From Knoellia sp. Soil729 (GTDB lineage: Bacteria > Actinomycetota > Actinomycetes > Actinomycetales > Dermatophilaceae), in contig NZ_LMSA01000001.1 of NCBI RefSeq assembly GCF_001427985.1, positions 377,629-441,628 on the forward strand: a DNA stretch of 64,000 nucleotides, given 5' to 3'. The notes beneath the pieces were generated by a model. It did no database searches and had not been told where the DNA came from. It was given only the letters and a program-made list of their open reading frames with translations. How positions within the stretch are numbered: position 1 is the first letter of the stretch; each line of letters opens with the position of its first letter. A program made the position numbers and the translations under genes. Shown here piece after piece: positions 372 to 64,000 of this stretch.

Positions 372-1164
372 TCCTCAGCCGGTGACCGGTGATGACGGTC
401 GCCAGCCAGCCCAGTCCGATGGCCCAGCCGGCGACGACATCGGTGAACCAGTGATGGCCCAGGAAGACCCTGGAGAGCCCCATGGCGGCGATGAGGACGG
501 TTGCGACGGCGATGGTGACGGCTCGCCACCGCTTCTTGCGCAGCCAGATGACGAGCAGGTATGCCGTGAGCCCCAGGACCACGGTCGCGTTCAGCGTGTG
601 CCCCGACGGGAAGCTGGCGGAGCTCTCGAAGGGTGGCACCGCGAGCGCCCGAGGCGGACGCGTCCTGGCGGTGAGGTCCTTGCCGGTCACGGTGATGAGG
701 AGCGAACCGGCGCTCGCGATGGCCATGAGGACGAGGGGCATCCACCTGCGCCACGACAGTGAGAGACCGACGGCCACGACGAGCGCGAGGATCGGCATGC
801 CCACAGGACCACCGATGTTGGTGAAGTCGGTGGCGAGTCGGTCCGCGAGCGGCGTGCGCATCCGGACCGCTGCGTCGAGCACGGGCTGGTCGATGACGGA
901 GATCCCGTCCCTGTCGACGACGTTCTCGTAGACCTCGGCCGAACCAGCCGTGAGGGCGGCCACGACGCCCAGCCCGATGACGACGGTGAGGACGAGGGCG
1001 ATGTTGGCGGAGGACCAGCGCAGCGCACGGCCGACGAGCACGGAGACGTGGGCGAGCCAGCCTGCGACGAGCCGGCCGGGGGCACTGCGCCAGTGGGCGA
1101 GGTCGCGGTCACCGATCCGCTCGTCCTTGGGCGGCGAGGTGCGCTGGGGCTCTGCTGACGGCAT
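328..1164 (-). CDS. PAP2-family membrane phosphatase
   Basis: This 278-residue integral membrane protein has the three signatures of type 2 phosphatidic acid phosphatases: K-x6-RP (K162 to RP169-170), PSGH at 186-189, and S-R-x5-H-x3-D (S231, R232, H238, D242). Members dephosphorylate lipid phosphates such as phosphatidate or undecaprenyl pyrophosphate on the outer face of the membrane. Hydrophobic segments lie near residues 55-73, 122-137, 143-160, 193-208, 217-230 and 242-260. The ATG at 1162-1164 is embedded in the repeated octamer GTATGCCG. The gene ends inside the convergent gene at the window edge (44-base overlap). The motif evidence is strong; the actual lipid substrate is not visible from sequence. 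Confidence 0.9.
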   Translation of the reverse strand: MPSAEPQRTSPPKDERIGDRDLAHWRSAPGRLVAGWLAHVSVLVGRALRWSSANIALVLTVVIGLGVVAALTAGSAEVYENVVDRDGISVIDQPVLDAAVRMRTPLADRLATDFTNIGGPVGMPILALVVAVGLSLSWRRWMPLVLMAIASAGSLLITVTGKDLTARTRPPRALAVPPFESSASFPSGHTLNATVVLGLTAYLLVIWLRKKRWRAVTIAVATVLIAAMGLSRVFLGHHWFTDVVAGWAIGLGWLATVITGHRLRITLARRRRDGPAAG

Positions 1165-1255
1165 ACGAGATCGTCACACATCTGGACGCACGAACACCCG
1201 GCGCGGTCAGCGCAAGCCGACCGGCCGGGTGTGGGTGCAGGTGGGATGACCACGG

Positions 1256-1623
1256 TGGTGGAGGTGGCGGGAATCGAACCCGCGTCCACTGACGGGAAAC
1301 CAAGACTTCTCCGGGTGCAGTGCGCTGTGGATTTTTCTCGGCCCCAGGGCTCGCGCGCACACGTTCCCTGACAGGCCCAGTCGGATTGAGTCCCACGCCA
1401 CCCCCCGACAGGAGCGACGCAGCCAGTTCTCTAGATGGCGCCAGGCACTGAGTCGAGATCTAGCTCAGGCTGACGGACTTCGAAGCTCGCTCAGGCGGCG
1501 AGGGCGAAGTCGGTGCGCTTGTTGTCGGCACCTATTGGTTTGCACAGATCGTTAACGAGATAACTGTGCATCCTCGACCCGCTTCCCTTGATCTGCCGAT
1601 CAATGTCGAAACCGATCACCCCC
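1256..1623 (-). ncRNA. ssrA: transfer-messenger RNA (tmRNA)
   Basis: tmRNA rescues stalled ribosomes and tags the unfinished protein for proteolysis, working with SmpB (encoded at 9789-10280). The 3' end reads as a tRNA T-arm (GGTTCGATTCC) followed by CCTCCA and an encoded CCA at 1258-1256. The 5' end, GGGGGTG at 1623-1617, pairs with CACCTCC of the acceptor stem (one G-U), and is followed by the conserved GGTTTCGAC. A tag reading frame lies at 1529-1491. Length is 368 nt, normal for a one-piece tmRNA. A possible -35 hexamer TTGACG lies at 1676-1671, but no convincing -10 follows. In many actinobacteria ssrA sits right after smpB; here about 8 kb separates them. Confidence 0.96.
1491..1529 (-). 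other. tmRNA proteolysis tag reading frame, ADNKRTDFALAA-stop
   Basis: The resume codon GCC at 1529-1527 opens a 12-codon frame ADNKRTDFALAA ending at TGA (1493-1491). The C-terminal ALAA is the usual degron read by ClpXP-type proteases. The tag resembles actinobacterial tags such as the mycobacterial ADSHQRDYALAA. Confidence 0.93.
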
Positions 1624-1717: not shown

Positions 1718-1725
1718 GAGGCGGT

Positions 1726-3073: not shown

Positions 3074-3207
3074 GGCCGCGACCGGCCGTGTCCGTCGCCG
3101 GTGCCGCCCAGGACGTGCACGCGTCCGGAGTGTGGTCCACCCGTCTCACGTCGTGGGCCGACACTAGTCTTGCAGCACGCATTTTCGACCCCAGCTGGAG
3201 GTATGCC

Positions 3208-6200
3208 GTGTTCCGCAAGGTCCTCGTCGCCAACCGGGGCGAGATCGCCGTCCGGGCGTTCCGCGCCGCCACCGAGCTCGGCGCCAAGACCGTCGCGGTC
3301 TTCCCCCACGAGGACCGCAACTCCGAGCACCGGCTCAAGGCTGACGAGTCCTACCAGATCGGCGAGGAGGGCCACCCCGTGCGGGCCTACCTCGACCACG
3401 AGAACATCGTGCGCGTCGCGGTCGAGTGCGGGGCGGACGCGGTCTACCCGGGCTACGGCTTCCTCTCCGAGAACCCGCTGCTGGCCGAGGAGTGCGCGGC
3501 CCACGGCATCACCTTCATCGGTCCACCGGCCAAGGTCCTGCACCTGACCGGCAACAAGTCCAAGGCCATCGCGGCCGCGCGTGAGGCCGGTCTGCCCACA
3601 CTGCGCGGGTCCGAGGCGGGCACCGACCTCGACGCCCTCGAGCGGGCGGCGACGGACATCGGCTTCCCCTGCTTCGTCAAGGCGGTCTCTGGCGGCGGTG
3701 GGCGAGGCATGCGCCGGGTGGAGCGGCCCGAGCAGCTGCGCGAGGCACTCGAGGCGGCGCAGCGCGAGGCCGACGCGGCCTTCGGCGACCCCACGCTCTA
3801 CATCGAGGAAGCCGTCGTCGACCCGCGCCACATCGAGGTGCAGATCCTCGCTGACGGCACGGGCACCCGCGAGGAGGACAGCGGCGGCGTGCTGCACCTG
3901 TTCGAGCGCGACTGCTCCGTGCAGCGCCGCCACCAGAAGGTCGTCGAGATCGCGCCGGCCCCCAACCTCGACCCGGCGACCCGTGAGCAGATGTGCGCCG
4001 ATGCCGTGCGCTTCGCCCGCGAGATCGGCTACGTCAACGCCGGCACCGTCGAGTTCCTCCTGGGCAAGGACGGCCGCTACGTCTTCATCGAGATGAACCC
4101 GCGCATCCAGGTCGAGCACACGGTCACCGAGGAGGTCACCGACGTCGACCTGGTGGTCTCCCAGATGCGCATCGCCTCGGGTGAGACCTTCGAGGACCTC
4201 GACCTGCGCCAGTCCGAGATCGTCCTGCGCGGGGCTGCCCTGCAGTGCCGGATCACCACCGAGGACCCCGCCAACGGCTTCCGGCCGGACGCCGGGACGA
4301 TCACGGTCTATCGCTCGGCCGGCGGTGGCGGTGTGCGCCTCGACGGTGGCACGGTCTTCGTCGGCGCCAAAGTTTCCGCCCACTTCGACTCGATGCTCGT
4401 CAAGCTCACCTGCCGCGGACGCAGCTTTCCCGTCGCGGTCCGCCGGGCGCGAAGGGCCTTGGCAGAGTTCCGGATCCGCGGAGTGTCCACCAACATCCGC
4501 TTCCTCGAGGGCGTCCTCGCCGACCCGGTGTTCCAGGCGGGCGAGGCGACGACCTCGTTCATCGACGAGCGACCCGAGCTGCTCACCGCGCGCACCCCGG
4601 CCGACCGCGGGACCAAGCTCCTCACCTACCTCGCCGACGTGACCGTCAACCAGCCGCACGGCGCCGCGCGCACGACGCTCAAGCCGCGCAGCAAGCTGCC
4701 CACCCTCGACCTCGAGGCTCCCCTGCCGCCTGGTTCGCGCGACCTCCTGCAGCGCGTCGGCCCGGCAGGGTTCGCGAGCCGGCTGCGAGCGCGCACGGAG
4801 GTGGCGGTCACCGACACGACGTTCCGTGACGCCCACCAGTCCCTGCTCGCCACGCGCATGCGCACCCGCGACCTGCTCCACGTCGCCGGGCACGTCTCCC
4901 GCCTCACCCCCGAGCTGCTCTCGATGGAGGCCTGGGGAGGGGCAACCTACGACGTGGGCCTGCGCTTCCTCAGCGAGGACCCCTGGGAACGGCTCTCGCT
5001 GCTGCGCGAGGCGATGCCCAACATCCCGCTGCAGATGCTGCTGCGCGGGCGCAACACGGTGGGCTACACGCCCTACCCCACCAAGGTGACCGACGCGTTC
5101 GTCCACGAGGCGGCCCGCTCGGGCCTGGACATCTTCCGCATCTTCGACTCGCTCAACGATGTGGACCAGATGCGACCGGCCGTCGAGGCGGTCCTCGCCA
5201 CCGACACGTCCGTCGCCGAGGTCGCCCTCTGCTACACCGGCAACCTCAGCGACCCCGGCGAGAAGCTCTACACGCTCGACTACTACCTGCGCCTCGCCGA
5301 GCAGATCGTTGGCACCGGCGCCCACGTCCTCGCCATCAAGGACATGGCCGGGTTGCTGCGCGCCCCCGCGGCTCGCACGCTGGTCAGTGCCCTGCGCGAG
5401 CGCTTCGACCTGCCCGTGCACCTCCACACGCACGACACGGCGGGCGGCCAGATCGGCACCCTGCTCGCAGCGATCGACGCCGGCGTCGACGCCGTCGATG
5501 CCGCGTGCGCCGCGATGGCGGGCACCACGAGCCAGCCCTCCCTGTCGGCCCTGGTCGCCGCAACCGACGGGACGCCGCGCCCGACGGGCCTGGACATCGA
5601 CAAGGTCTTCGCGCTCGAGCCCTACTGGGAGGCGGTGCGTCAGGTCTATGCGCCCTTCGAGTCGGGCCTGCCCTCCCCCACCGGACGCGTGTACTTCCAC
5701 GAGATCCCGGGCGGCCAGCTCTCGAACCTGCGCCAGCAGGCGATCGCTCTCGGGCTCGGGAACCGCTTCGAGGACATCGAGAACATGTATGCCGCCGCCA
5801 ACCGGATCCTGGGCAACCTCGTCAAGGTCACCCCGAGCAGCAAGGTGGTGGGGGACCTCGCCCTGGCACTGGTGGGGGTCGGCGCGGACCCGGACGACTT
5901 CGAGGAGAACCCCACGAAGTACGACATCCCCGACTCGGTCATCGGCTTCCTCGAGGGCGAGCTGGGCGATCCGCCCGGCGGCTGGCCCGAGCCGTTCCGC
6001 ACCAAGGCCCTGCAGGGCCGCCGGCGCAAGCCACGCGTCACCGCACTCTCGCCCGAGCAGGAGCAGGCCCTCGACACCGACCCCCGCGCGACGCTCAACC
6101 AGCTCCTCTTCCCAGGTCCCACCAAGGACTACCTCTCGTCCACCGAACGCTACGGCGACCTGTCGGTCTTGGGCACCGTCGAGTTCCTCCACGGCCTGGA

Positions 6201-7814: not shown

Positions 7815-9785
7815 CTACCAGGAGCCGCCGCCACCTCCCCCGCCACCACCTCCGGAGAACCCCCCGCCTCCGGAGAAGCCACCACCACCCAGTCCCGAGC
7901 CGCCGGACGACCCGGGCGTCGACACGAACGTTCCGGCCGCCTGGGTGGAGAAGGAGTCCATGCTCGAGGCGACGTAGCCGAAGTTCCACCCCGTCACCGG
8001 CCCGGCGTACCAGAGCGGCGCGGCAATGACGTGGCCCGCAGCGGCCGCGGCCGCGGCGACGTCCTCGAAGACCTTGGCCCAGCGGTCGGCCAGACCGAAG
8101 ACGATGGCGTAGGGCAGGAACTTCGAGAAGATGTCCTGCGCCTCCTCCCACCTGATCTGGTTGGCCTCGGCCGTCGCGATGTAGCGCTCGAAGCCCTGCG
8201 ACTGTGCGAAGACGGCACTGCCCTCGGCCGTCCTGGCAGCCATTCGGCGCCCCAGGGCCTTGACGATGAAGCCCGCGACGATGAGGCCGATGCCGAAGAC
8301 CCAGCCCATGGCGCTCAGACGTGGACCCCCGAGGCCGCCGAGGGCGCTCGAGAGGAAGAACAGGGAGAGACCACCGAGGACGAGAAGGACGGTCCCGAGG
8401 CCGCTCCATGCAGCGCGCTGGGCATCCGGCGAGCGGCGGAACCAGTGGCGCTGCACGGCTTCGGTGTACATCATTCCCTGCACCGTCGCCAGGGTGCTGG
8501 CGAACGAGTTCTTCAGCGCCGACAGGCGGGTCTCGTCGCCGGAGGCGAAGACCCCGTCGAGCAGTCGCTGCTCATAGGCGGCGAGGGCGGCCGCCCCGGA
8601 GGGCGGGGTGGTCCGTCGCAGGATCCAGTCGTCACTGCGGAAGCGTCCCTTCTCCTCGGCAGTGAGGGTGAGGTGGCCGCGGACCGCGAGGTCGATGAGG
8701 GTGGCGGTGACGTCGACGACGTCGGCGCGCTCGTCGATGATCGTGCCGACCATGCCCGGCTGCACCCCGGCCGGAGGCGTGAACTGCACCGCGATGGTGG
8801 GGGCCGAGCCGCGCACGACCGGCGCGCTCTCCCCCGCACCGGGGGTGAGGCCCGGAGTGAGCCCGGCATAGACCTCGTCGCGGCCCCTGGTCCACACGAG
8901 CAGCCCCATGAGCCCGCCGGCGAGCAAGGGGATGAGCACGCCGCCACCGAGCAGCGCGGCTCCGAGGTACTTCTGCTGGTCGTTGCTCAACGAGGGCCCG
9001 GGGTCGTAGCCGCCGCCGTAGCCGCCATCGCTCCCGGACTCGCGCAGGTCGGGCGTCAGGTCCCCGAAGGCCGTGCGCGGCCAGGAGACGACGATCGTCG
9101 CCCCCTGCCCGGGCTCGATGTCGGGGATGGTGAACGAGGAGGTCGCGCCAGCCGTCCCGGTGCACGTGGTGTCCTCGTGCAGCACGCCGTAGTAGCAGGC
9201 GACCCGGGTGGCCGGCACGGGACCGGTGACGTCCGCCGTCACCTGGTGGTAGGCGTACTCGTTGGAGGGGTCGATGTGGTTGTAGTAGAGCTCTGCGGTG
9301 CCGTCGCCGACGTCGTTGATGACGTTGTCCAGCACGTACGACAGGACGTACTCCTGGACCCCTGACACGGTCTCGTCGGCGCTGCCGATCCGCACCTGCT
9401 CGTAGGCGCCGAAGTCCGAGATGTCCGTGTCGGTCGGTGCCCCGGTCGGCGAGGTGACCTCGACGTCGGAGAGCTCGTAGTGGCGGTACTGCGTCGTGGA
9501 GTCCTGGTAGCCGGCCCGCGTCTGGATCGTGCGATAGATGCCGTGGCGGTCCTCCCCGTCGGGGAAGTCCCAGCGGATGCGCTGGGTGACCTTCATCGAC
9601 CCGTCGGGACGCACGGCATACAGGACGTTGAAGCTCGCGGCGTCGTCATCCATCGGCAGGAAGCCGACGAGCGAGGCCGGCGACGAGCCGGGCGGGCTCG
9701 CGAGAGCCGCACCGGCCGGCATGGCGAGGACCAGGGCCACCAGCACCCCCGCTCCCGCCACCCAGGAACGAAGCCGACCGGTCAT
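7815..9785 (-). CDS. DUF2207-family secreted/membrane protein
   Basis: This 656-residue protein has a signal peptide (about residues 1-29, VALVLAMPAGAALAS). An extracytoplasmic DUF2207 region follows to roughly residue 260 (YAVRPDGSMKVTQRIRWDFP near the beginning), then transmembrane segments near 290 and 480-510. It ends in a low-complexity tail of glycine/serine (FSGGGGFSGGGGGG, ending SW), which is characteristic of this family. Function is unknown. Start ATG at 9783-9785 is only 3 bases after the smpB stop, so the two are co-transcribed. The octamer CGGCATAC at 9614-9621 falls within the coding sequence as Tyr-Ala using the rare TAT codon. Confidence 0.9.
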   Translation of the reverse strand: MTGRLRSWVAGAGVLVALVLAMPAGAALASPPGSSPASLVGFLPMDDDAASFNVLYAVRPDGSMKVTQRIRWDFPDGEDRHGIYRTIQTRAGYQDSTTQYRHYELSDVEVTSPTGAPTDTDISDFGAYEQVRIGSADETVSGVQEYVLSYVLDNVINDVGDGTAELYYNHIDPSNEYAYHQVTADVTGPVPATRVACYYGVLHEDTTCTGTAGATSSFTIPDIEPGQGATIVVSWPRTAFGDLTPDLRESGSDGGYGGGYDPGPSLSNDQQKYLGAALLGGGVLIPLLAGGLMGLLVWTRGRDEVYAGLTPGLTPGAGESAPVVRGSAPTIAVQFTPPAGVQPGMVGTIIDERADVVDVTATLIDLAVRGHLTLTAEEKGRFRSDDWILRRTTPPSGAAALAAYEQRLLDGVFASGDETRLSALKNSFASTLATVQGMMYTEAVQRHWFRRSPDAQRAAWSGLGTVLLVLGGLSLFFLSSALGGLGGPRLSAMGWVFGIGLIVAGFIVKALGRRMAARTAEGSAVFAQSQGFERYIATAEANQIRWEEAQDIFSKFLPYAIVFGLADRWAKVFEDVAAAAAAAGHVIAAPLWYAGPVTGWNFGYVASSMDSFSTQAAGTFVSTPGSSGGSGLGGGGFSGGGGFSGGGGGGGGGGSW

Positions 9786-10280: not shown

Positions 10281-10358
10281 GACGTCACCTCCTCGAGTGG
10301 GCTCCACAGGCTACGTCAACGTATGCCGGGTGCGCGCCCGGGTTCCCTGGCCCACCTG

Positions 10359-13721: not shown

Positions 13722-14275
13722 CGGGCGAAGGAGATGCCTTCGAGGAGTTCAGCTCCAGCCTCTTCCGGCTCACCCGCTCCCTGCGCTCGACCTCGCACCT
13801 GTGGGTGCAGCTGCCCGGCGGACTCAAGCGCACGGACATCGGCATCCTCACCGTGCTCGCCGACCACGGACAGTGCCGTCCGGGCTTCATCGCCGACCGC
13901 CTCAACGTCGGCGCCTCCGTCATCAGCCGACAGCTCGTCTCCCTCGTCGCCGACGGCATGGTCGTCCGCGACAAGGATCCGCAGGACGGCAGGGCCGAGC
14001 AGATCTCGCTGGCACCCGAGGGGCGGCTGCGACTTCACGCCCTGCGGGCGGCATACATCCGCGGTCTGCGGGAGCAGTTCACCGACTGGGACGAGACCAA
14101 GGCTCGCGACGCGGCGGCCCTGCTCCACGAGATCTCCGACCACATCATCCCGGCGCTCGGCGGCCACGAACGGCCCCTTCGAGACGACGCCACGACCTCC
14201 CAAGAGAGCACGGACAGTGACACCAAAGACAGCGCAAGCACCACCAGCGAAGACACCGAGGACACCCATGGCTGA
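13709..14275 (+). CDS. MarR-family transcriptional regulator
   Basis: A winged-helix protein of 188 residues with a MarR core: LKRTDIGILTVLADHGQCRPGFIADRL, the recognition helix GASVISRQLVSLVADGMVVR and the wing DPQDGRAEQISLAPEG. The acidic Ser/Thr-rich tail (about 165-188) is disordered-looking. The start ATG at 13709 is chosen because the promoter at 13673-13701 and the start-centred palindrome place it at the mRNA 5' end. It overlaps the DHA2 efflux gene by 8 bases, so the repressor and pump form one operon, probably induced by the pump's substrate. Confidence 0.9.
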   Translation: MVKQPGEGDAFEEFSSSLFRLTRSLRSTSHLWVQLPGGLKRTDIGILTVLADHGQCRPGFIADRLNVGASVISRQLVSLVADGMVVRDKDPQDGRAEQISLAPEGRLRLHALRAAYIRGLREQFTDWDETKARDAAALLHEISDHIIPALGGHERPLRDDATTSQESTDSDTKDSASTTSEDTEDTHG

Positions 14276-19082: not shown

Positions 19083-19156
19083 GAGAGCCAAGACTACGTG
19101 CCCGTATGCCGTGAGCTCACCGCGCGCGTGCCGATGCCGCTGTGCACAAGTGCCAA

Positions 19157-19607: not shown

Positions 19608-20693
<1,086 letters not shown>

Positions 20694-29873: not shown

Positions 29874-29930
29874 CCTGCGAGTGTCCCCCTCGACCATGGT
29901 TCTCGTCACCCTTTGCGGCAAGGATGGGGT

Positions 29931-35520: not shown

Positions 35521-37689
<2,169 letters not shown>

Positions 37690-47287: not shown

Positions 47288-48813
47288 CGCTCGCCGCCCT
47301 GCTCGTCGTCCTGCGCAGCGCTGCCGGCGGCGGTCTGCTCGGCATACAGCTTGAGCAGCGACTGCCCCAGCATCGCCCTGCGGTAGTCGGCGGTGGCGCG
47401 GTGGTCCGTCAGCGGTGTCCCCTCCTGCGCGAGGACGGCCGCTGCGGTGTGCACGCCTTCGCGGTCCCACCGCGTACCCTCCAGCGCAGCCTCGGTGCGC
47501 AAGGCGCGTATCGGGGTGGTCGCCACTCCCCCGAGACCGATGCGTGCCCGGGTCACGGTGCCCTCGACGACCTCGAGCGCGACCGCGACGGCGACCCCGG
47601 AGATGTCGTCGAAGCGGCGCTTGGCAACCTTGTGGAAGGCCGCGATCGGAGCCAGCGGCAAGGGGATGTGGATCTCGCGGATGAGCTCGTCGGGGCGTCG
47701 CAGGCTCACGCGGTAACCGGTGAAGTAGTCGGCCAGTGGCACCACTCGGTCGCCCTCCGGCCCGGCCAGCACGAGCGAGGCCTCGAGCGCCAGCAGCGCG
47801 GGGGCGCAGTCGCCGATGGGTGACGCGGTGCCGAGGTTGCCGCCGAGGGTCGCGCCGTTGCGGATGAGCCGCGAGGCGAACAACGGGAAGAGCTGCGCCA
47901 GCATCGGCACCCTCCCGCCGAGGCCGCGCTCGACCTCGGTGAGCGTGAGCCCGGCGCCGATACGCACCTCGTCGGCCCCCACGTGGAGGTCCCGCAGCTC
48001 GGGCAGCCGGTCGACAGCGACGAGGAGCGTAGGCCGCAGGCCCTTGAGGTTGAGGTCCACCCCGACGTCTGTGGAGCCGGCCAGGAGCACGGCGTCAGGG
48101 TGGGCTGCAAGGAGCTGCACCGCCTCGGCGAGGTCCAGGGGTCGCACCAGCTCCGCGCCGTCCGCCACGACATGGGTTCTCATGGGCGGCGCCGGCGCGG
48201 ACTGCCGACGCTCGGCGAACGGGTCAGAGTCCTCGGGCAGGCCCAGGGCGTAGGCCGCGTCGCGGATGGGTCGGTACCCGGTGCAGCGGCACAGGTTGCC
48301 CGACAGCGCGTGCAGGTCGAAGCCGTTGGAGCCGTGGTCGCGCTCCGGCTCCAGGTCCCGGGCAGCAGCCTCCTCGGCGTCCTCCCCATGCGTGGGAGTG
48401 CGGCCGGCCCGGTAGAACTCCGCCGCCATCGAGCAGACGAAGCCGGGCGTGCAGTACCCGCACTGGGACCCGCCACGGTCGGCCAGCTCCTGTTGGACCG
48501 GGTGCAGCCGGTCGGGCGTGCCGAGCCCCTCGGACGTCACCACCTCCTGGCCATCCAGGGCGGCGACGGGCACGAGGCAGGAGTTGAGCGAGACCCACTC
48601 GGTGGCCGTCGTGCCGGGAGAGCCCGGCCGCGCCACCATGACCGCGCACGCGCCGCACTCGCCCTCGGCGCAGCCCTCCTTGCTGCCGGTGAGACCGCGG
48701 TCGCGCAACCAGTCCAGGGTCGTCGTGTGTGGGGTGATCGACGCGCCGAGCGGCACCGGGGACCCGTTGACGGTCAGAGAGGCTTCTCCCTGGGCCACGG
48801 GCTGCAGCGTCAC
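47284..48813 (-). CDS. xdhA: xanthine dehydrogenase iron-sulfur/FAD subunit
   Basis: Electron-transfer chain (509 residues) uniting two modules. The N-terminal two [2Fe-2S] motifs are GSKEGCAEGECGACAVMV with a later NSCLVP cysteine, and SQCGYCTPGFVC with GNLCRCTGYRPI. After a linker (about 160-200), the FAD domain shows LLAGSTDVGVDLN and NGATLGGNLGTASPIGD. This matches bacterial XdhA (as in Rhodobacter). GTG at 48813 overlaps the upstream DinB gene stop by 4 bases; the xdhB start overlaps by 4 as well. Confidence 0.93.
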   Translation of the reverse strand: MTLQPVAQGEASLTVNGSPVPLGASITPHTTTLDWLRDRGLTGSKEGCAEGECGACAVMVARPGSPGTTATEWVSLNSCLVPVAALDGQEVVTSEGLGTPDRLHPVQQELADRGGSQCGYCTPGFVCSMAAEFYRAGRTPTHGEDAEEAAARDLEPERDHGSNGFDLHALSGNLCRCTGYRPIRDAAYALGLPEDSDPFAERRQSAPAPPMRTHVVADGAELVRPLDLAEAVQLLAAHPDAVLLAGSTDVGVDLNLKGLRPTLLVAVDRLPELRDLHVGADEVRIGAGLTLTEVERGLGGRVPMLAQLFPLFASRLIRNGATLGGNLGTASPIGDCAPALLALEASLVLAGPEGDRVVPLADYFTGYRVSLRRPDELIREIHIPLPLAPIAAFHKVAKRRFDDISGVAVAVALEVVEGTVTRARIGLGGVATTPIRALRTEAALEGTRWDREGVHTAAAVLAQEGTPLTDHRATADYRRAMLGQSLLKLYAEQTAAGSAAQDDEQGGER

Positions 48814-49283
48814 GGTGCCGACCCCTCGGGTGCGGCGAGGAGGACGTCGCGGGTGACCTCGAGCTGGCCCAGGTGCTGGACGAGCTCCTCGTAGATGTGC
48901 ATGAGCACGTCCCCCTGCGTGGCGTATGCCGTTCGGTCCCCTTGCGTGGGCGGGTTCACCGGCGAAGCCGCCGGGTCGGCCGCCCGGGCGTCCTCGTGCA
49001 GCCGGCCACGGGCCGACTCGAGCTGTGCGAGCGCCTCGTCGACGCTCCCGGTCGCCGTGAACTCCGCGTCGCGGTCCCGTGGGACCTCGATCCCCCGGTT
49101 GACGTCGCGGGCCCAGTGACCCATCACGCCGACGGCATGGGAGACCAGCGCGAAGCCGGAGTTCGAGCCCTCGACCGCGGGAACCACCCCGTTGACCTGC
49201 GCGTCTCCCAATGCCCGCAGGCACCCGGCATACGAGTCCAGGGCATGGTCGCAGTAGGCGAGGTAGGAGTCGACGGTGATCAC
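48810..49283 (-). CDS. DinB-superfamily (mycothiol transferase-like) protein
   Basis: A 157-residue four-helix-bundle protein (VITVDSYLAYCDHALDSYAG, FALVSHAVGVMGHWARDV, MHIYEELVQHLGQLEV) with spaced histidines (SHAVGVMGHW, MHIYEELVQH) that could form the metal site of DinB/maleylpyruvate-isomerase enzymes. Such proteins use mycothiol or metals in detoxification. It directly precedes xdhA (4-base overlap), so it is part of the purine oxidation operon; a role in handling oxidised intermediates is a guess. GTG at 49281-49283. Confidence 0.7.
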   Translation of the reverse strand: MITVDSYLAYCDHALDSYAGCLRALGDAQVNGVVPAVEGSNSGFALVSHAVGVMGHWARDVNRGIEVPRDRDAEFTATGSVDEALAQLESARGRLHEDARAADPAASPVNPPTQGDRTAYATQGDVLMHIYEELVQHLGQLEVTRDVLLAAPEGSAP

Positions 49284-49374: not shown

Positions 49375-50898
49375 ATGGGCAGCGCAGAGTCCAACCTCGC
49401 CTTCCACCTCGTCAGCACCGCGAAGGCCATGCCGGACCGGCCGGCGATCAAGATCAACGGCCAGGACATCAGCTACCAGCAGCTGCATGGCATGGCGGCC
49501 AAGCTCGCAGGCACCTTGCGCGCCAACGGGATCGAGCCAGGTGACCGGGTCGCGCTCATCCTGCCCAACGTCCCGGCCTTCCCCGTCGCGTTCTTCGCCA
49601 CGCTCCTCGCGGGCGGCATCGTCGTGCCGATGAACCCGCTGCTGAAGTCGGGCGAGATCGACTTCTTCTTCACCAACTCCGGCGCAAAGATCGCGTTCGT
49701 CTGGCCGGACTTCGTCGACGAGGCCACCAAGGGTGCCGAGCGCTCGGGGACCAAGATCGTCGAGTGCGGGCCGCTCGGTCCCGTCGAGGGCGCCCTGGAC
49801 GCCGGGGACGGCGGCGCAGAGCCGATTGCCGAGCCCACCGAACGCGAGGGCGACGACACCGCGATCATCCTTTACACGTCCGGGACCACCGGCCGTCCCA
49901 AGGGTGCCGAGCTCACCCACGACAACGTCAGCCTCAACGCCATGCGCTGTGCGCAGGGCATCCAGGAGATCTCCCCCGACGACGTCATCATGGGCTGCCT
50001 GCCGCTGTTCCACGTCTTCGGTCTCGTCGTCGGGCTCAACGCCGCCGTGCGAGCCGGCGCCTCGCTGGCCCTCATCCCGAGGTTCGACCCGGCCGCGGCG
50101 ATCAAGGTCATCGGTGACGAGAAGGTCACCATCATGCAGGGCGTCCCGACGATGTATGCCGCGATCCTCAACCACCCCGACGCCGACTCCCTCGACGCGT
50201 CCTCGCTGCGCACCTGCGCCTCGGGTGGGTCGGCGATGCCGCTCGAGGTGATGAAGGCGTTCGAGGAGAAGTTCGGCTGCGTCATCCTCGAGGGGTACGG
50301 CCTGTCCGAGACCTCGCCGGTGGCGTCGTTCAACATGCCCGACCGCGAGCGCAAGCCCGGCACCATCGGGTTGGCCATCCCCGGCTGCGAGATGCGGGTC
50401 GTCGACCTCGAGGGCAACGAGGTGGAGCACGGCGAGGTGGGCGAGATCGCCATTCGCGGCGACAACGTCATGAAGGGCTACTGGTCCGACCCCGAGGCGA
50501 CCGCCGAGGCGATCCCCGACGGCTGGTTCCGCACCGGCGACCTGGCCACCCAGGACGACGAGGGCTACTTCACGATCGTCGACCGCAAGAAGGACATGAT
50601 CCTGCGCGGCGGCATGAACGTCTACCCGCGGGAGGTCGAGGAGGTCATCTACCAGCACCCGGACGTCCTCGAGGTCGCCGTCGTCGCCGTGCCCGACGAG
50701 CTGCTCGGGGAGCAGGTCGGCGCGGGCGTCGTGCTGCGCGAGGGGTCGACGAGCACTGCGGACGACATCATCGCGTTCACCAAGGAGCGCATCGCCGCTT
50801 ACAAGTACCCCCGCAACGTCTGGCTCCTCGACGAGCTGCCCAAGGGTCCCACCGGCAAGATCCTGCGGCGCGAGGTGAGCGCCCCCAGCGCTTCCTGA
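49375..50898 (+). CDS. long-chain fatty-acid--CoA ligase (AMP-binding)
   Basis: An acyl-adenylate-forming enzyme of 507 residues: phosphate loop ILYTSGTTGRPKGAELTHDN, acyl-binding GYGLSETSPVASF, hinge YFTIVDRKKDMILRGGMNVYPREVEEVI and catalytic lysine in LPKGPTGKILRREV. These activate carboxylic acids as CoA thioesters; chain length is not decided. ATG at 49375 is used because AAAGGAG lies 9 bases upstream; an earlier ATG exists at 49336. The gene is divergent from the xdh set and convergent with the EamA gene. Confidence 0.92.
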   Translation: MGSAESNLAFHLVSTAKAMPDRPAIKINGQDISYQQLHGMAAKLAGTLRANGIEPGDRVALILPNVPAFPVAFFATLLAGGIVVPMNPLLKSGEIDFFFTNSGAKIAFVWPDFVDEATKGAERSGTKIVECGPLGPVEGALDAGDGGAEPIAEPTEREGDDTAIILYTSGTTGRPKGAELTHDNVSLNAMRCAQGIQEISPDDVIMGCLPLFHVFGLVVGLNAAVRAGASLALIPRFDPAAAIKVIGDEKVTIMQGVPTMYAAILNHPDADSLDASSLRTCASGGSAMPLEVMKAFEEKFGCVILEGYGLSETSPVASFNMPDRERKPGTIGLAIPGCEMRVVDLEGNEVEHGEVGEIAIRGDNVMKGYWSDPEATAEAIPDGWFRTGDLATQDDEGYFTIVDRKKDMILRGGMNVYPREVEEVIYQHPDVLEVAVVAVPDELLGEQVGAGVVLREGSTSTADDIIAFTKERIAAYKYPRNVWLLDELPKGPTGKILRREVSAPSAS

Positions 50899-52027: not shown

Positions 52028-53028
52028 CAGTCCTGCTCCTTCTCGGTGAGCTCGCGGGCGGCGTCGATCGCCACCCGCTGGACGGCGACCGCCGCCGACG
52101 GTGGGAGTGAGGGCAGCCCGCACGCGGGGGTGACGGTGACGTCGGCAAGGCGGGCGGACGGCATACCGATCGCTCGAAACCCGTCGAGAACTCTGGTGAC
52201 CGCTGCTCGCACCGCGTCCCCCGAGGACCCGACCGGAGTCGTCGCCACCACCCCCGCCCACAGGCGGGTGCCGCTCTCCATCGCCGCGGCGAGCGCCTCC
52301 CAGCGCTGGGGCGAGGCGTCGGTGAGGTCGAGGGAGAGCGCCGTGGCTCCCGTGGAGGCGAGCAGCTCGACCGGGGCTCCCGGGTGGCAGGAGTGCAGGA
52401 CGACGTCACCGTCGTGCGCCTCACGAACCTCCCGTATGCCGCGTGCCACCTCCGCGCGGTCGACCGCACGCACCCGTCCGTAGCCGGACGCCGTGGGCAG
52501 CTCCCCGCGAAGGACCGACAGGACCGACGGCTCGTCGAGCTGCACCGTGACCACCGCTCCCGGCACGAGCCGCTGCACCTCGGCCACGTGCTGGCGCACG
52601 CCCTCGGCGAGGGAGGCGACGAGGTCGCGGCGGGCACCCTCGTCGGTCACCGAGCGCTCGCCGCGGTTGAGCTCGATGGAGGCCGCGAGGGTCCACGGGC
52701 CGGCGACCTGCAGCTTGAGCGGGCCGGCATACCCGTCGTAGGCCTCGGCCAGCTCGTCGAGGTCCTGGCGCCAGAAGGATCGAGCGCGGGACTGGTCCCG
52801 GCCCGGCCGGTCGGTGAAGCGCCAGCCCGAGGGCTGGAGGTCGACGGAGAGGTCGGCGAGCAGGGCCGCGGACCGCCCGATGAGGTCGGATCCCGGCCCG
52901 CGAGAAGGGGTTTCGGGGAGATAGGGGATGCCGGAGACGTCGATGTCAGTGAGGAGGTCGCGCACCGACACGATGGCCTCGCGGGAGGACTCGCCCGGCC
53001 AGGACCCGACTCCGGAAACGTGTGTCAC
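52027..53028 (-). CDS. MetE C-terminal-like (UROD/MetE fold) protein
   Basis: A 333-residue protein of the cobalamin-independent methionine synthase C-terminal fold: VTHVSGVGSWPG at the start, PLKLQVAGPWTLAAS, VTVQLDEPSVLSVLRGE and VVLHSCHPGAPVELL, with possible zinc ligands H and C in LHSCHP and a late VTPACGLPSLP cysteine. Comparable genes lie near mnmA and ligA in mycobacteria (Rv3015c). It lacks the N-terminal MetE half, so it is a stand-alone methyltransferase-like protein of unproven substrate. GTG at 53026-53028 follows a small palindrome. Confidence 0.82.
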   Translation of the reverse strand: MTHVSGVGSWPGESSREAIVSVRDLLTDIDVSGIPYLPETPSRGPGSDLIGRSAALLADLSVDLQPSGWRFTDRPGRDQSRARSFWRQDLDELAEAYDGYAGPLKLQVAGPWTLAASIELNRGERSVTDEGARRDLVASLAEGVRQHVAEVQRLVPGAVVTVQLDEPSVLSVLRGELPTASGYGRVRAVDRAEVARGIREVREAHDGDVVLHSCHPGAPVELLASTGATALSLDLTDASPQRWEALAAAMESGTRLWAGVVATTPVGSSGDAVRAAVTRVLDGFRAIGMPSARLADVTVTPACGLPSLPPSAAVAVQRVAIDAARELTEKEQD

Positions 53029-54368: not shown

Positions 54369-55549
54369 CAGGCGGCCCCGCTCGCCCGGCGGGCGCGCTC
54401 GACGACCGCGGGCAGCGCAGCCAGGAAGGCCTCGACGTCGGCCTCCATCGACGTGTGTCCCAAGGAGAGCCGCAGTGCCCCGCGTGCCTCCGCCTCCGGG
54501 TAGCCCATGGCGAGCAGCACGTGGCTCGGCTGCGGCACACCGGCCTGGCACGCTGAGCCGGTCGAGCACTCCACACCGGCGGCGTCGAGCAGGTAGAGCA
54601 GGGAGTCACCCTCGCAGCCCCGCACGAGCAGGTGGGCATTGCCGGGAAGCCGTTCGGTGGCGTCACCCTCGGTCCAGCAGCCACTCACACTGATGCCGAG
54701 GTCGAGCCCCAACGCACCGGTGATGAGCCGGTCCCGCAGCCCCGTGAGCCGCCGCGCCTCGTCGTCGCGCTCGGCAACGGCCTCGGTCAGGGCAACGGCA
54801 AACGCGCGTATGCCGGCCGCGTCGAGAGTGCCCGAGCGCACCTGCCGCTCCTGGCCGCCTCCGTGGACGAGGGGCACGAGCGTGGCGTCGCGCCGGGCGA
54901 GGAGCGCACCCACCCCGACCGGGCCGCCGACCTTGTGTGCCGTGACGGTCATGAGGTCTGCACCGCAGCCCGCGAAGCTCACGGGCAGCTGGCCCACCGC
55001 CTGCACGGCGTCGGTGTGGAACGGCACCCCGGCCTCGTGGGCCACGGCGGCGAGCTCGGCGACCGGCTGGACCGTGCCCACCTCGTTGTTGGCCCACATG
55101 ACGCTGACCATCGCCGCGTCCAGCGGCTCGGCGGCCAGCGTCGCCCGCAGGCCCTCGACCGAGATGTGGCCGCACCGGTCGGGCTCCAGCCAGGTGACCG
55201 AGGCACCGTGCCTCTTCACGAGGTGCTCGACGGGGTCGAGCACCGCGTGGTGCTCGATACCGCTGACCACGAGCCGGGAGGCACCCACGGAAGCCAGCCG
55301 TGCGGCATACGTGCCCTTGATGGCGAGGTTGTCGGCCTCGGTGCCGCCGGAGGTGAAGACGACCTCGGACGGTCGGGCGCCGAGCGCATCGGCGATCTCC
55401 TCACGCGACTCCTCGACCACGGCCCGCGCGGCTCGGCCGGAGGTGTGCAGCGACGAGGGGTTGCCCACGTGGGCGGACTGCTCGAGCCATGCCTCACGTG
55501 CCGACGGCCGCAGAGGGGTCGTCGCAGCATGGTCCAGGTACGCGCTCAC
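54368..55549 (-). CDS. iscS: cysteine desulfurase
   Basis: PLP enzyme (393 residues) that releases sulfur from cysteine for iron-sulfur clusters and tRNA thiolation. PLP lysine K206 is in [15 protein letters not shown], the ASNNE-like loop is [14 protein letters not shown], and the persulfide cysteine is in [15 protein letters not shown] start at 55547-55549. It overlaps mnmA by one base. It begins 30 bases downstream of a long-stem hairpin that closes etfA. Confidence 0.96.
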
Positions 55550-57419: not shown

Positions 57420-57663
57420 GCGTGCCTCGTCCTCTTCTCTGGGATCGATGTCAGTGGTGTGGGGTGTGGCTTCACGACCTCCGACCGAGCGTATGCCGGG
57501 TGCTCGCCCCGTGGACAATTCTCCGGGCGTGATGGTGGGCACAGAAAACGTGGGAAAAGAATCTTCGCGGGGCCTGACGCCCACAGCGAGGGTGGAATAC
57601 GAGACCATCGGGGTGCAGTCACCACACTCGACTTGAAAACACAGGACCGAGGAGGATGAGCTG

Positions 57664-59694: not shown

Positions 59695-61860
59695 ATGACG
59701 CCGCTGACGTCCGCGAGGACTGCATCCACCCTGCACGTCCGTCGCGACCTTCCCCCCGCACCGGGCGTCACCGTCGTCGACGGCGGCATCGAGGTCAGCG
59801 TATATGCCGGTCATGCCGACTCGGTCGAGCTCTGCCTCTTCGACGCCGGCGACTCCGAGGGCACCACGGAGCACCGCATCCCCCTGGTCGAGCACGCCTT
59901 CGGCTGGTGGTTCGGCTTCGTCGAGGGTGTCGGCGTCGGTCAGCGCTACGGCTTCCGGGTCGACGGTGCGTGGGACCCGGAGCGGGGCCTGCGCCACAAC
60001 CCCAGGCAGCTGCTCATGGACCCCTACGCCCGGGCCATCGAGGGCGAGGTCCGCTGGGGCCCGAGCGTCTACGGGCACGTCGTCGACGAGACGTCGTGGC
60101 GGGGTGACGGCTTCGCACCCTCGGAGATCGACTCGGCCCCGGACATGCCGCGCTCGGTCGTCATCGACGACAGCTTCGACTGGGGTGACGACGCACCTCC
60201 GGCGGTGACGCGCAGCGAGACCGTCATCTACGAGGCCCACGTCCGCAACCTCACGATGGAGCTTCCCGACGTGCCGCCGGAGCTCCGGGGAACCTACGCC
60301 GGGATGTCCCACCCCGTGACAATCGCCCACCTCACCGGGCTCGGGGTCACCGCCGTCGAGCTGCTGCCCGTGCACTCCTTCGCCTCGGAGCCGGCCCTCA
60401 TCCACCGGGGCCTGGTCAACCACTGGGGCTACAACACGTTGGGCTTCTTCGCCCCGCACGCTGCCTACGCGGCCGCAAAGGACCCGCAGGGCGCCCTCGA
60501 CGAGTTCAAGGGCATGGTCAAGCTGCTCCACGCCGCCGGACTCGAGGTCCTGCTGGACGTCGTCTACAACCACACGGCCGAGCAGGAGGTCACCGGCGCG
60601 ACCCTGTCCTTCCGCGGCCTGGACAACCGCGCGTACTACCGCCTCGACGAGCGCGGTCGCGACATCGACGTCACCGGCACCGGCAACACCCTCGACCTGC
60701 GCCACCCCATCATGTGCCGGCTGGTCCTGGACTCCCTGCGCTACTGGGTGGAGGAGTGCCACGTCGACGGCTTCCGCTTCGACCTCGCCGTCGCCCTCGC
60801 TCGTGGGCGCAACGACGAGTTCGACCCCGACCACCCCTTCCTCGTCGCGCTGCGCGCCGACCCCGTCCTCTCGCGCACCAAGCTCATCGTCGAGCCGTGG
60901 GACGTGGGCATGCACGGTTGGCGCACGGGGCAGTTCCCGCCTCCCTTCTCGGAGTGGAACGACCGCTTCCGTGACTCGGTGCGCGACTTCTGGCTGGCCG
61001 ACCATCGACCGTCCGTCCCGGGGCAGGTGCCGCACGGCGTGCAGGACCTCGCAACGCGCCTGGCCGGCTCGCGCGACCTCTTCGGTACCCGCGATCGAGG
61101 GCCCACCGCGTCGGTGAACTTCGTGGCGGCACACGACGGTTTCACGCTCGCCGACCTCACGGCATACGACGAGAAGCACAACGAGGACAACGGCGAGGAC
61201 AACAACGACGGCTCCAACGGCAACCACTCCTGGAACCACGGGGTCGAGGGCCCGACCGAGGACGAACACGTTCTCGCACAGCGTCGCCGGTCGATGCGCA
61301 ACCTGCTGGGCACGCTGTTCCTCTCCTCCGGCATCCCCATGATCAACGCAGGTGACGAGTTCGGGCGCACCCAGAACGGCAACAACAACCCCTACAACCA
61401 GGACAACGCGACGACCTGGTTCGACTGGGACCTCGCGCCGTGGCAGGAGGACCTGCTCGCCACGACCCGCCACCTCGCCGCGATCCGGCGCGAGCACCCG
61501 GCACTGCGTCAGCGCACCTGGGCCGAGGGCCGCGAGGTCCACGAGGACGGGTCCATCGACCTCGCCTGGTACGCCGCGGACGGCTCGCCGATGCAGGACT
61601 GGACCAGCCCCGACAACCGCACCCTGCAGATGCTCGTCAACGGCGCCTGGCTGGGCCACGAGTCCGTCCTGGTCGTCCTGCACGGTGGGCGCGAGGAGCA
61701 GCGTGTGACCCTGCCGACCGCCCCCGGCCTCACGGGATACCGGCTCCTCTGGGACAGCCAGTGGGAGCGCCCCGGGGACGGCCACCAGGTGGGCGCCGGC
61801 GCCGAGGTCACCTGCGGGGCACTGAGCCTGCGGGCGTATGCCGTGACCGACCCCACCTGA
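59695..61860 (+). CDS. glgX: glycogen debranching enzyme GlgX
   Basis: A GH13 isoamylase-type debranching enzyme of 721 residues that removes alpha-1,6 branches left by phosphorylase. N-terminal CBM48-like domain (about 30-180), then the barrel with VLLDVVYNHTAE, catalytic nucleophile D363 in VDGFRFDLA, acid E400 in LIVEPWDVG and D481 in NFVAAHDGFTL, and the GlgX-specific NGNNNPYNQDNATTWFDW. ATG at 59695 lies 6 bases after a -10 TAGGCT (59683-59688), indicating a leaderless transcript. Confidence 0.96.
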   Translation: MTPLTSARTASTLHVRRDLPPAPGVTVVDGGIEVSVYAGHADSVELCLFDAGDSEGTTEHRIPLVEHAFGWWFGFVEGVGVGQRYGFRVDGAWDPERGLRHNPRQLLMDPYARAIEGEVRWGPSVYGHVVDETSWRGDGFAPSEIDSAPDMPRSVVIDDSFDWGDDAPPAVTRSETVIYEAHVRNLTMELPDVPPELRGTYAGMSHPVTIAHLTGLGVTAVELLPVHSFASEPALIHRGLVNHWGYNTLGFFAPHAAYAAAKDPQGALDEFKGMVKLLHAAGLEVLLDVVYNHTAEQEVTGATLSFRGLDNRAYYRLDERGRDIDVTGTGNTLDLRHPIMCRLVLDSLRYWVEECHVDGFRFDLAVALARGRNDEFDPDHPFLVALRADPVLSRTKLIVEPWDVGMHGWRTGQFPPPFSEWNDRFRDSVRDFWLADHRPSVPGQVPHGVQDLATRLAGSRDLFGTRDRGPTASVNFVAAHDGFTLADLTAYDEKHNEDNGEDNNDGSNGNHSWNHGVEGPTEDEHVLAQRRRSMRNLLGTLFLSSGIPMINAGDEFGRTQNGNNNPYNQDNATTWFDWDLAPWQEDLLATTRHLAAIRREHPALRQRTWAEGREVHEDGSIDLAWYAADGSPMQDWTSPDNRTLQMLVNGAWLGHESVLVVLHGGREEQRVTLPTAPGLTGYRLLWDSQWERPGDGHQVGAGAEVTCGALSLRAYAVTDPT

Positions 61861-61933
61861 CAGCCCCACCCCTTCGTCGCGAGGCTGTGGACAACTCGCC
61901 GGGCGCTCCGGCCGTTTTCCCTAGCGTTCACGT

Positions 61934-64000
61934 ATGCCGTCCGCCCCCGTCGTCCTCGACGTCACCGTGCGCTGGCCCAGCCGGAGCCAGGGACTCGCCA
62001 CGAGCGGTCCGGCCGGTGGCTCAGGCGGCCTCGACGTGCGTGTCACCGCACCGGTTGGCGCCACCCTCGCCGACGTCCTGCCGCTCCTGGCTGAGCTCGT
62101 GGCGTCAGCTGGCGCGACCGGTGCACTGCCTCAGGTCTCCTGCCGGGGAGCGCGCGTGCCGGTCGAGTCGGTGCTGGGGCTGCCTCCGCTCGTGCACGGT
62201 GCGACCCTGATGCTGGACGAGCCGAGCCGGCTGGTGGCGACCGCGTCGGCACCCCTGGACGTCGTCGTCGTCGCCGGACCCGATGCCGGACGACGTCTCC
62301 CGCTGACGTCCGACGGGGTGGTGGTCGGGCGGTCGGCGGGCCTCGGGCTCAGCCTCTGCGACGAGGGTCTGAGCAGGCGACATGCACGGATCAGCCTGTC
62401 GGAGAGGGGTTTTCGGATCACGGACCTCACGTCCACCAACGGCACGCGCTGTGGATCCGTGGCTCTGCCCGAGGGTGGCACCGTGGACGTCGAGGGGTCG
62501 GAGCTCATTGCGGTCGGCACGTCCCTGCTTCGTCTGGAGCGGGCTGTCGGGCCGACGGCGTCGACGCTGCCGCTCGGGGACGGACGCATCGCGGTCAACC
62601 GCTCACCACGCACCCGACCGCCCGACGTGGCAGTCACCGTGACGGCTCCCACTCCGCCCGCCCCACCGCGACGGGGGCGCATCCCGTGGCTCGCTGCCGC
62701 GCTCCCGGTGCCGTTCGCCGGTCTCCTCGCGATGTTCTTCGGGCCACAGATGCTGGCCTTCGCCCTGCTGTCACCCCTCATGCTCATCGGCAATGTGCTG
62801 GGCGACCGGTGGGGCGGTCGGCGCGAGTACGCCAAGGAGCTGGCGGCCCACCGGGTCGAGGTGGCCGTGCGCCGGGACGAGTTCGACGCGCTGCGAGCAC
62901 TGGAGCGGGTGCAGCGCTGGCGGGACCTCCCTGACCCGGCCACCATCCTCGACATCGCGACCGGGCCCGGGACCCGTCTGTGGGAGCGCCGACGTGGCGC
63001 CCCGGACGTGGGGCGAGTGCGTCTGGGTGTGGGCGACCTGGTCACGCGCACGACGTGGCGGACCTCCAGTGCTGCCGGTGTGGACCAGCCGGCCAGCTCG
63101 ATCCACGACGGTGGGCACGCCTCCAGCACAGCCACATTGGCGCACCTCCCGGTCGAGGTCGCACTGGACCAGGTGGGCGGGCTCGGCATCGCCGGCCCGC
63201 GTGCGGAGGTCCAGGCGATGATGCGGCAGGTGCTCGGGCAGGTCGTCGCCCTGCACTCCCCGCGGGACGTCCGCCTCATCGTGCGGGTCCCCGATGGTGA
63301 AGGTGAGGGCACGCTCGGGTGGGCCCGATGGCTGCCGCACACCACGGCATACGGGGAGCTGAGCACCTGCCTGGAGGTGCTGCGTGAGGTCGTCACCGCG
63401 CGTGAGGCCCAGCAGGAGCGCGGGGACAGGTGCAGCGAGCCACGGGTGCTGCTCGTGCTCCCCGAGCACGAGGACGACCTGGGGGTCGGTGAGCTCGACG
63501 ACCTCGTGGGGCGCGGACGCGGTGTGGGGGTGTGGTGCCTCGTCGGCGCGAGCACGGCTGGCGCACTCCCCTCGTCGTGTCATGCCGTGGTGGGCATGGG
63601 GTCCAGCGGTGGTGCGGGTGCCGGTGATCGAGTCGCGCGGCTCGACGTCGACGGGTGTGAGCCCGTCGCCTCGTTCGTCCCGGACCGGGTCGGCTGGTGG
63701 TGGGGCGAGCGCCTGGGCCGAGCGCTTGCCGCCCTCGTCGACGTCGGTGGTGACGCCGAAAGCCTTCCCGACACGGTCGACCTGCTCCAGCTCATGCCAT
63801 GGCTCGACGAGGGAGCGGCCCTGACACCGGGGGCACTGGCATCACACTGGCGCCCGGTTGGGCCTCCCCCACATCCCCCGCCACGGCCGCTCGCCCACGT
63901 GGGTCGGGTGGCCGGAGCCGACTGGACGGTGGATCTCGCGGGCGACGGGCCCCATGTCCTCGTCGGTGGCACGACCGGCTCGGGCAAGTCCGAGCTGCTG
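61934..64000 (+). CDS. FHA-domain FtsK/SpoIIIE-type ATPase (partial, EssC-like)
   Basis: Open from ATG 61934 to the right edge (689 codons, no stop). N-terminal residues 1-60 look ubiquitin-like (VRVTAPVGATLADVLPLLAEL). An FHA domain covers about 110-190 with GRS (132-134), LSRRHARIS and TSTNGT. Two or three membrane helices (about 250-285, LPVPFAGLLAMFFGPQMLAFALL) follow. The window ends at Walker A, GGTTGSGKSELL (K685). This layout matches FtsK-like motors of type VII/ESX-related secretion or FHA-FtsK proteins of Micrococcales. A -10 TAGCGT (61922-61927) 6 bases before the ATG suggests a leaderless start, in the octamer GTATGCCG. The remaining ATPase domains lie outside. Confidence 0.88.
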   Translation, partial: MPSAPVVLDVTVRWPSRSQGLATSGPAGGSGGLDVRVTAPVGATLADVLPLLAELVASAGATGALPQVSCRGARVPVESVLGLPPLVHGATLMLDEPSRLVATASAPLDVVVVAGPDAGRRLPLTSDGVVVGRSAGLGLSLCDEGLSRRHARISLSERGFRITDLTSTNGTRCGSVALPEGGTVDVEGSELIAVGTSLLRLERAVGPTASTLPLGDGRIAVNRSPRTRPPDVAVTVTAPTPPAPPRRGRIPWLAAALPVPFAGLLAMFFGPQMLAFALLSPLMLIGNVLGDRWGGRREYAKELAAHRVEVAVRRDEFDALRALERVQRWRDLPDPATILDIATGPGTRLWERRRGAPDVGRVRLGVGDLVTRTTWRTSSAAGVDQPASSIHDGGHASSTATLAHLPVEVALDQVGGLGIAGPRAEVQAMMRQVLGQVVALHSPRDVRLIVRVPDGEGEGTLGWARWLPHTTAYGELSTCLEVLREVVTAREAQQERGDRCSEPRVLLVLPEHEDDLGVGELDDLVGRGRGVGVWCLVGASTAGALPSSCHAVVGMGSSGGAGAGDRVARLDVDGCEPVASFVPDRVGWWWGERLGRALAALVDVGGDAESLPDTVDLLQLMPWLDEGAALTPGALASHWRPVGPPPHPPPRPLAHVGRVAGADWTVDLAGDGPHVLVGGTTGSGKSELL

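Follow-up and report, generated by a model that had tools for sequence, protein, structure and literature searches.

A genome-wide octamer in Knoellia and its relatives as the putative core of a DNA uptake sequence

A 64,000-nucleotide stretch of the actinobacterium Knoellia sp. Soil729 (Dermatophilaceae; contig NZ_LMSA01000001.1, positions 377,629 to 441,628; called the window here, always at its full length) raises the question of why one non-palindromic octamer, GTATGCCG, is found there again and again. The window has 38 exact copies, 18 on the plus and 20 on the minus strand, against a mean of 0.81 and a maximum of 4 among 100 dinucleotide shuffles. The original prediction, made from the letters alone, had claimed a massive over-representation with 37 copies (17 plus, 20 minus); the minus count is exact and the plus count is short by one, the additional copy at 559-566 falling outside the range of 1159..63352 given at that time. 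The near-miss CTATGCC, estimated at about five copies, is present in exactly five, and 38 of the 44 copies of TATGCC in the window are within GTATGCCG. We propose, with a probability of roughly 0.75 and by analogy with known systems, that the bacterium has a DNA uptake sequence with GTATGCCG at its core, through which DNA would be taken up in a sequence-biased manner via a Tad-type competence pilus. Copy number, balanced strands, an excess between genes, a core with soft flanks, conservation among congeners, clade-structured dialects, and the presence of comEA and comEC together with Tad loci favour this reading, since the same pattern is thought to arise from uptake bias and recombination in Neisseriaceae and Pasteurellaceae.

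The enrichment extends over the whole genome. The 3.6-Mb genome has 2138 copies of GTATGCCG and 89 of the reversed word, and the octamer is present in all of the 21 stretches sampled from it. In a 464-kb sample consisting of the window and 400 kb of the same genome, 266 copies are found, while 5.9, 8.0 and 11.6 are expected from Markov models of orders 1, 2 and 3, respectively. The claimed over-representation is thus upheld, the enrichment being neither restricted to the window nor accompanied by a genome count near expectation. This null is a Markov model rather than a codon-aware one, which is less of a concern between genes, where the excess described below is independent of codons. Copies in the hundreds to thousands, far above Markov expectation, are a common property of the DNA uptake sequence (DUS) of Neisseriaceae and the uptake signal sequence (USS) of Pasteurellaceae. 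The signal is a sharp octamer, because most single-base variants in the sample are near or below the order-2 expectation, the highest being CTATGCCG (22 vs 5.4), GTAGGCCG (40 vs 22) and GGATGCCG (75 vs 47); the 8-mers neighbouring GTATGCCG are also mostly near expectation. Separately, CCTGCGCGA / CTGCGCGAC are about 4-fold above the order-3 expectation in the sample and in two relatives (G009 and G044), mostly within genes (7 of 89 copies in the sample are intergenic), probably as a codon effect.

Copies of GTATGCCG are balanced between the strands, as in DUS and USS: 1055 plus and 1083 minus in the genome (p = 0.56), and 88,452 and 88,656 in the sum of the 94 family genomes in which the octamer is enriched. 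Adjacent copies in the sample are in the same (75), convergent (84) or divergent (86) orientation, mixed within 20-kb stretches. The balanced orientation which had been held against FtsK-orienting polar sequences (KOPS) is therefore confirmed, and KOPS, for which a strong orientation bias is required, are disfavoured. The octamer had also been described as evenly spread; this is correct as to its presence throughout the genome, and incorrect as to regular spacing, since the distances are Poisson-like and near exponential (coefficient of variation 0.955 over 245 gaps within stretches of the sample). Paired hairpins are not supported by the number of close pairs, which is at expectation (7 under 50 bp vs 7.5); a few inverted pairs with hairpin potential exist without any excess.

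Among the 266 sites of the sample, 188 are genic, 69 intergenic and 9 at gene edges, as assigned by a crude GC-frame gene caller rather than a standard one. The intergenic density is 2.5 times the genic density (p = 1.8e-9), again as in DUS and USS; relative to the order-2 expectation, 69 copies vs 1.5 are found between genes (about 46-fold) and 188 vs 6.0 within them. The corresponding density ratio is 1.9 in ten enriched relatives pooled. Within genes, sense copies peak in the middle and antisense copies toward the 5' end, both in small numbers; an intragenic position bias has been described for the uptake sites of Pasteurellaceae (PMC2346458). The flanks of the 266 sites have T at +9 in 44%, and A and T at +13 amount together to 6%. 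In 81 intergenic sites of the genome, a soft downstream run appears with C58 at +11, G72% at +12, C75% at +15 and C67% at +17. The initial impression of no conserved flank is thus roughly right, and in detail has to give way to a soft downstream preference from +9 to +17.

Sites of GTATGCCG turn over, yet they are held between congeners. When nine congeners are aligned by blastn at their comEC and tad loci, the octamer is unchanged in 182 of the 245 comparisons (74%), which are taken over all ordered pairs and hence are not independent. Control words are kept less often: other TA-containing 8-mers with three A/T in 1594 of 4273 (37%), 8-mers with three A/T in 22189 of 88001 (25%), and all 8-mers in 65695 of 309135 (21%). 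When the window is aligned with 20 kb of the congener G008, six of the seven covered sites are kept, namely those at 21817..21824, 24762..24769, 30476..30483, 32328..32335 and 33661..33668 on the minus strand and 35149..35156 on the plus strand. The seventh (20662..20669, plus) is gapped in G008, which has four sites of its own. The original prediction had held that counts in related genomes and conservation in aligned orthologues would speak for selection; sites are indeed kept at 74% vs 21-37% for control 8-mers, and the octamer is enriched in a majority of the genomes of the family.

Enrichment, defined as 300 copies or more together with a ratio of 2.4 or more to the reversed word (thresholds of our own choice, applied to genomes at least 90% complete), is found in 94 of 163 genomes and 27 of 48 genera of the family, with a median of 1758 and a maximum of 4724 copies. 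Seven of the remaining genomes are intermediate and 62 are lower still. In 19 other families of the order, represented by 38 genomes, the count always stays below 300. Gain or loss occurs within genera: G137 has 19 copies vs 3681 in G138 and 1062 in G032, and G154 has 50, the other members of its genus among those listed having 404 to 1901. In the genome of strain Soil729 itself, one stretch (L028; C5:1-20000) has 3 copies in 20 kb instead of the usual 11 or so. Its five scanned genes comprise two branched-chain amino acid permease parts, an amidase, a CoA-transferase and a phenol hydroxylase-like gene, and this catabolic and transport stretch may be acquired DNA.

Several relatives have near variants of the word, beside it or in its place. 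Enriched 8-mers were scanned in the 54 genomes for which 12 kb or more of sequence was at hand, relative to an order-2 background of the same sequence; samples are small, and the absence of a word means that none was found in 20-120 kb. GTATGACG is accompanied by GTATGTCG and GTATGGCG in G011 and G012, and by GTATGGCG in G034, where it reaches 35x; all three keep GTATGCCG. GTATGCGG is at 23x in G027 and 11x in G025, and GAATGCCG is at 32x in G020 alongside GTATGCCG at 14x. Weaker words of the GTACGMCG type, GTACGCCG, GTACGACG and GTACGGCG, are at about 4-8x in G055, G098, G030, G047 and G137, and less clearly enriched in G026 and G031; GTACGCCG is at about 1x in the genome of strain Soil729. 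GGATGCCG is at 10-14x in G024, G033 and G116, and whole-genome counts of this word and its reversed form are 3816/392 in G024 and 3949/289 in G033. G051 has 2195 copies of GGATGCCG (207 reversed) beside 1217 of GTATGCCG; the balance of words has therefore shifted within one genus, to which both G116 and G051 belong. GGATGCCG is also abundant in another family, f19 (4491/159 in G095 and 1548/184 in G079). The background ratio of GGATGCCG exceeds that of GTATGCCG (563/284 in the genome of strain Soil729, up to 827/126 in G019), so that G009, with 1336 copies (310 reversed), is not a clear case. The dialect labels cluster when placed on a ComEC tree (67 rows), with 15 changes vs 35.4 after shuffling, outgroup rows being treated as one group. 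As with the dialects of DUS and USS, the word itself or a close variant thus recurs in related species, grouped by clade. Two of six variant words, GAATGCCG and GTATGCGG, have an intergenic excess (1.9 each, about 22 sites).

A further word, CCCCCTTCG, is common to two genera which lack GTATGCCG, g37 (G044, G142) and g38 (G045, G121). Where 4.1 and 1.6 copies are expected (order 3), it has 62 in 140 kb and 29 in 56 kb, respectively (about 15-18 fold), in loci such as L067, L108-L111, L172, L187 and L189; 21 of the 62 and 9 of the 29 are intergenic. A terminator hairpin was considered and dropped for CCCCCTTCG, because no complementary arm is seen among the examples listed and many copies are intragenic; as a lead, it may be a second, unrelated uptake word. 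Two other kinds of repeated sequence were encountered in relatives. Three loci of G033 (L089, L132, L133) have AT-richer 8-mers, AACAACTG, TGGAACAA and TTCCAGAA, 14-16 times in 51 kb, which are probably a repeat array. L173 (G016) and G044 loci have long poly-C/poly-G tracts between genes (43-50 overlapping 9-mers).

Genes for a DNA uptake machine are present, as in the bacteria with DUS or USS. The genome has comEC, complete with the Pfam domains of its product, and next to it a comEA-like gene (L064), which matches NCBIfam comE with an E-value of 7e-23, NCBIfam matches here being below curated cut-offs. ComEC is matched in 92 of 98 relatives, word-free genomes among them, and for this reason its presence does not decide the matter. 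PilM and N_methyl pilins had no match in any of the nine genomes of the genus and were matched in 2 of 60 family genomes each, and a type IVa pilus is accordingly not supported as the uptake machine of the genus. In f19, ComEC was found and searches for PilM and N_methyl pilin gave no match.

Three Tad ATPase loci, A, B and C, are present in the genome. Locus A (L017) has two Flp-like pilins, according to our reading, and TadE. The products of cluster C (L123) are TadA, TadB and TadC, a small protein resembling pilins, and minor pilins of two types, TadE (PF07811) and Tad (PF13400). A profile of the latter, built from cluster C of seven genomes of which two are word-free, finds a match in 153 of the 163 genomes of the family (E 0.001), and some weak matches (e.g., G033, G139, G008) may be other Tad pilins. 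All of the ten genomes without this pilin are below the enrichment threshold (Fisher p = 1.2e-4, uncorrected for kinship).

Several structural peculiarities of these loci were seen in passing. The longest gap without GTATGCCG in 344 kb, 10.6 kb (C1:483839-494482; L017:2211-12854), spans most of the flp/tad cluster A with its two Flp-like pilins, which suggests that this cluster was recently acquired or is fast-changing. Cluster C is seemingly interrupted in G015:C43, where the parts of a split T2SSE match are separated by about 11 kb. The pilin genes are displaced from tadC in G055:C7 and lie tens of kb off in G137:C1; a truncation of cluster C in G055 and G137 was considered and dropped, since the pilin genes sit further away.

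How such a pattern may come about can be pictured from known systems. DNA would enter cells of the family by way of a competence pilus of the Tad/Flp type and ComEA/ComEC, and an outer part of the machine would bind word-bearing fragments better, with soft preferences downstream of the word. By comparison with ComP, and with the predicted role of ComN, the receptor is most likely a Tad minor pilin. Uptake followed by homologous recombination would then spread GTATGCCG through the chromosome, biased uptake acting as a drive and coding constraint limiting the spread. Drift of the receptor would shift the preferred word by single bases into dialects, which could act as partial barriers between lineages. 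We thus infer competence of the cells, biased uptake and a Tad minor pilin as receptor from the pattern in the genomes.

The DUS of Neisseriaceae is the closest parallel to the distribution. It has about 900-5900 copies per genome and single-base dialects tracking phylogeny; two dialects can share one genome, and some relatives lack an obvious DUS (PMC3630211). The copy range, the single-base dialects and the word-free relatives of the present family are similar, and G051 with its two words resembles the genomes with two dialects. The words themselves differ, and are found here in high-GC bacteria of another phylum; the CTG core required in DUS is absent from GTATGCCG, and no ComP-type pathway is apparent in the genus, which has no match to type IVa pilus families. 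GTATGCCGT and the neisserial DUS ATGCCGTCTGAA (PMC2346458) have the run ATGCCGT in common, which is taken as chance because GTATGCCGT lacks the CTG core. The USS of Pasteurellaceae has a short core with softer flanks, is rarer in coding DNA and evolves by point mutation (PMC7811141, PMC1939737, PMC12616744), and the minor pilin ComN has been predicted as its receptor (PMC12616744). The core with softer flanks, the lower density in coding sequence, the change by point mutation and a minor pilin as the predicted receptor are shared with GTATGCCG, whereas the words are unrelated, the flanks are GC-rich here and AT-rich in USS, and Tad loci are found here in place of the type IVa pilus there. As for the machinery, Micrococcus luteus requires two tad clusters, Flp pili and comEA/EC for transformation, and has a G/XXXXE[FS] site in its tad-1 pilins (PMC4322843). 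The likeness comprises at least two tad clusters, comEA/comEC, the lack of other type IV pilus genes, and the same G/XXXXE[FS] site, by our reading, in the TadE-type pilin of cluster C. A difference is that the term 'uptake sequence' occurs 0 times in the accessible parts of PMC4322843 and PMC8467076.

Some observations weigh against an uptake sequence read by a Tad pilus. Both known families of uptake sequences use type IVa pili, for which no match was obtained in the present genus. No clear intergenic excess is seen for four of the six variant words (GGATGCCG 0.92, GTACGCCG 0.86, GTATGACG 1.09, GTACGACG 1.21), and ComEC was not matched in three enriched draft genomes (G036, G040, G041). The association with the PF13400-type pilin is weakened by descent: five of the ten pilin-less genomes are on the ComEC tree and form one group (support 82), and four more are their congeners. 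The only separate case, G110, is intermediate, with 153 copies vs 58 reversed. Since the pilin-less genomes are mostly one clade, the number of independent events is small and the Fisher test overstates independence. Conversely, the pilin is present without a strong word in 20-78 kb of G010, G016, G017, G018, G043 and G154 and in 115 kb of G009, and such pilin-bearing, word-free genomes indicate that the Tad pilus is not sufficient. The congeners G004 (6e-18) and G008 (9e-5) have weak pilin matches despite about 2500 copies of GTATGCCG each, and this pilin may thus not be strictly needed. Comparison of the pilins by eye gave no clear specificity residues among the matches listed. In a distance-based analysis of covariation with dialect (G009 labelled as GGATGCCG; G044, G142, G045 and G121 as CCCCCTTCG; the other genomes without a word left out), residuals were 0.045-0.046 for TadA/TadC of cluster C and 0.002-0.025 for TadB and pilins, ComEA gave no signal, and five control genes near comEC ranged from -0.005 to 0.03. 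TadA and TadC thus lie above the controls, which is not clear for the three minor pilins, and the comparison is confounded with descent.

Being short, non-palindromic, genome-wide and conserved, GTATGCCG might instead be a Chi-like recombination hot spot, which is read by a helicase-nuclease (AddAB/AdnAB-like or other) and protects broken or incoming DNA. The original prediction had named Chi-type sites and chromosome-organisation motifs beside uptake sequences. We regard the Chi-like reading as improbable. RecC (PF04257) had no match in any of the nine genomes of the genus and was matched in 18 of 60 family genomes regardless of the word, by which a RecBCD-type Chi is disfavoured. Furthermore, there is no strand bias, the word is denser between genes, and at about 23-33 fold (over Markov orders 3 and 2, respectively) it is enriched far more strongly than known Chi sites. 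Equally improbable is a methyltransferase or other self-marking site, kept at high copy number for marking or repair. Cyanobacterial HIP1, another genome-wide octamer far above expectation, has been linked to orphan methyltransferases (PMC4390886), and offers a precedent of this kind. HIP1 is palindromic, whereas GTATGCCG is not, and single-base dialects and soft flanks to about +17 are unlike a strict methylase site. A binding site of a chromosome-organising protein, to which the presence of the word in every sampled stretch and its copy number of about 2100 would be suited, seems slightly less probable still, because it has neither polarity nor regular spacing and switches between near relatives (G137 vs G138 and G032; G154 vs its genus), a patchiness odd for a core chromosome function. 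An origin in codon usage, pairs of amino acids or mutational bias, in favour of which the genic copies lie mostly in frames encoding Tyr-Ala and Ala-Tyr (82 and 61 of 188), is largely refuted by the excess between genes. The 8-mers neighbouring the word, mostly near expectation, also speak against it, as does TAT being a minority Tyr codon (338 TAT vs 2078 TAC), with 82 of the 338 inside GTATGCCG.

The putative uptake sites of the window outside the alignment with G008 are likewise exact matches. On the plus strand, in addition to the copy at 559..566, they are at 3201..3208, 5787..5794, 10321..10328, 17029..17036, 19104..19111, 29929..29936, 37161..37168, 47087..47094, 48924..48931, 50154..50161, 52434..52441, 54808..54815, 57491..57498, 61836..61843 and 61932..61939. 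Those on the minus strand are at 1159..1166, 9614..9621, 14049..14056, 16162..16169, 16510..16517, 17922..17929, 38960..38967, 46543..46550, 47340..47347, 49226..49233, 52159..52166, 52725..52732, 55303..55310, 61160..61167 and 63345..63352. The window also has a tmRNA gene on the minus strand (1256-1623), which encodes the tag peptide ADNKRTDFALAA.

In 2020, strong uptake preferences were stated for two families, Pasteurellaceae and Neisseriaceae (PMC7811141). Among the matches listed, in literature mostly open without subscription, there was no report of an uptake word in actinobacteria, nor, judged by titles and the opening lines of abstracts, any paper on a genome-wide motif among those listed for the octamer. 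An uptake sequence in this family would be a third case, in actinobacteria and with a different pilus, and would imply that self-specific uptake evolves repeatedly. At about even odds, the wider picture is a Tad/Flp-based system of sequence-specific uptake, evolved independently of the two proteobacterial ones, which would have rewritten thousands of sites per genome in at least two families (the present one and f19). Its dialects (GTATGCCG, GTATGNCG, GTATGCGG, GAATGCCG, GGATGCCG, GTACGMCG) would act as partial mating barriers, possibly with CCCCCTTCG as a second, unrelated word in two genera. Such a system would allow the drive model to be tested independently and would point to a Tad minor pilin as DNA receptor, the dialects serving as ready-made natural contrasts. 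Donor DNA furnished with the word might also make laboratory genetics easier in harmless members of the family.

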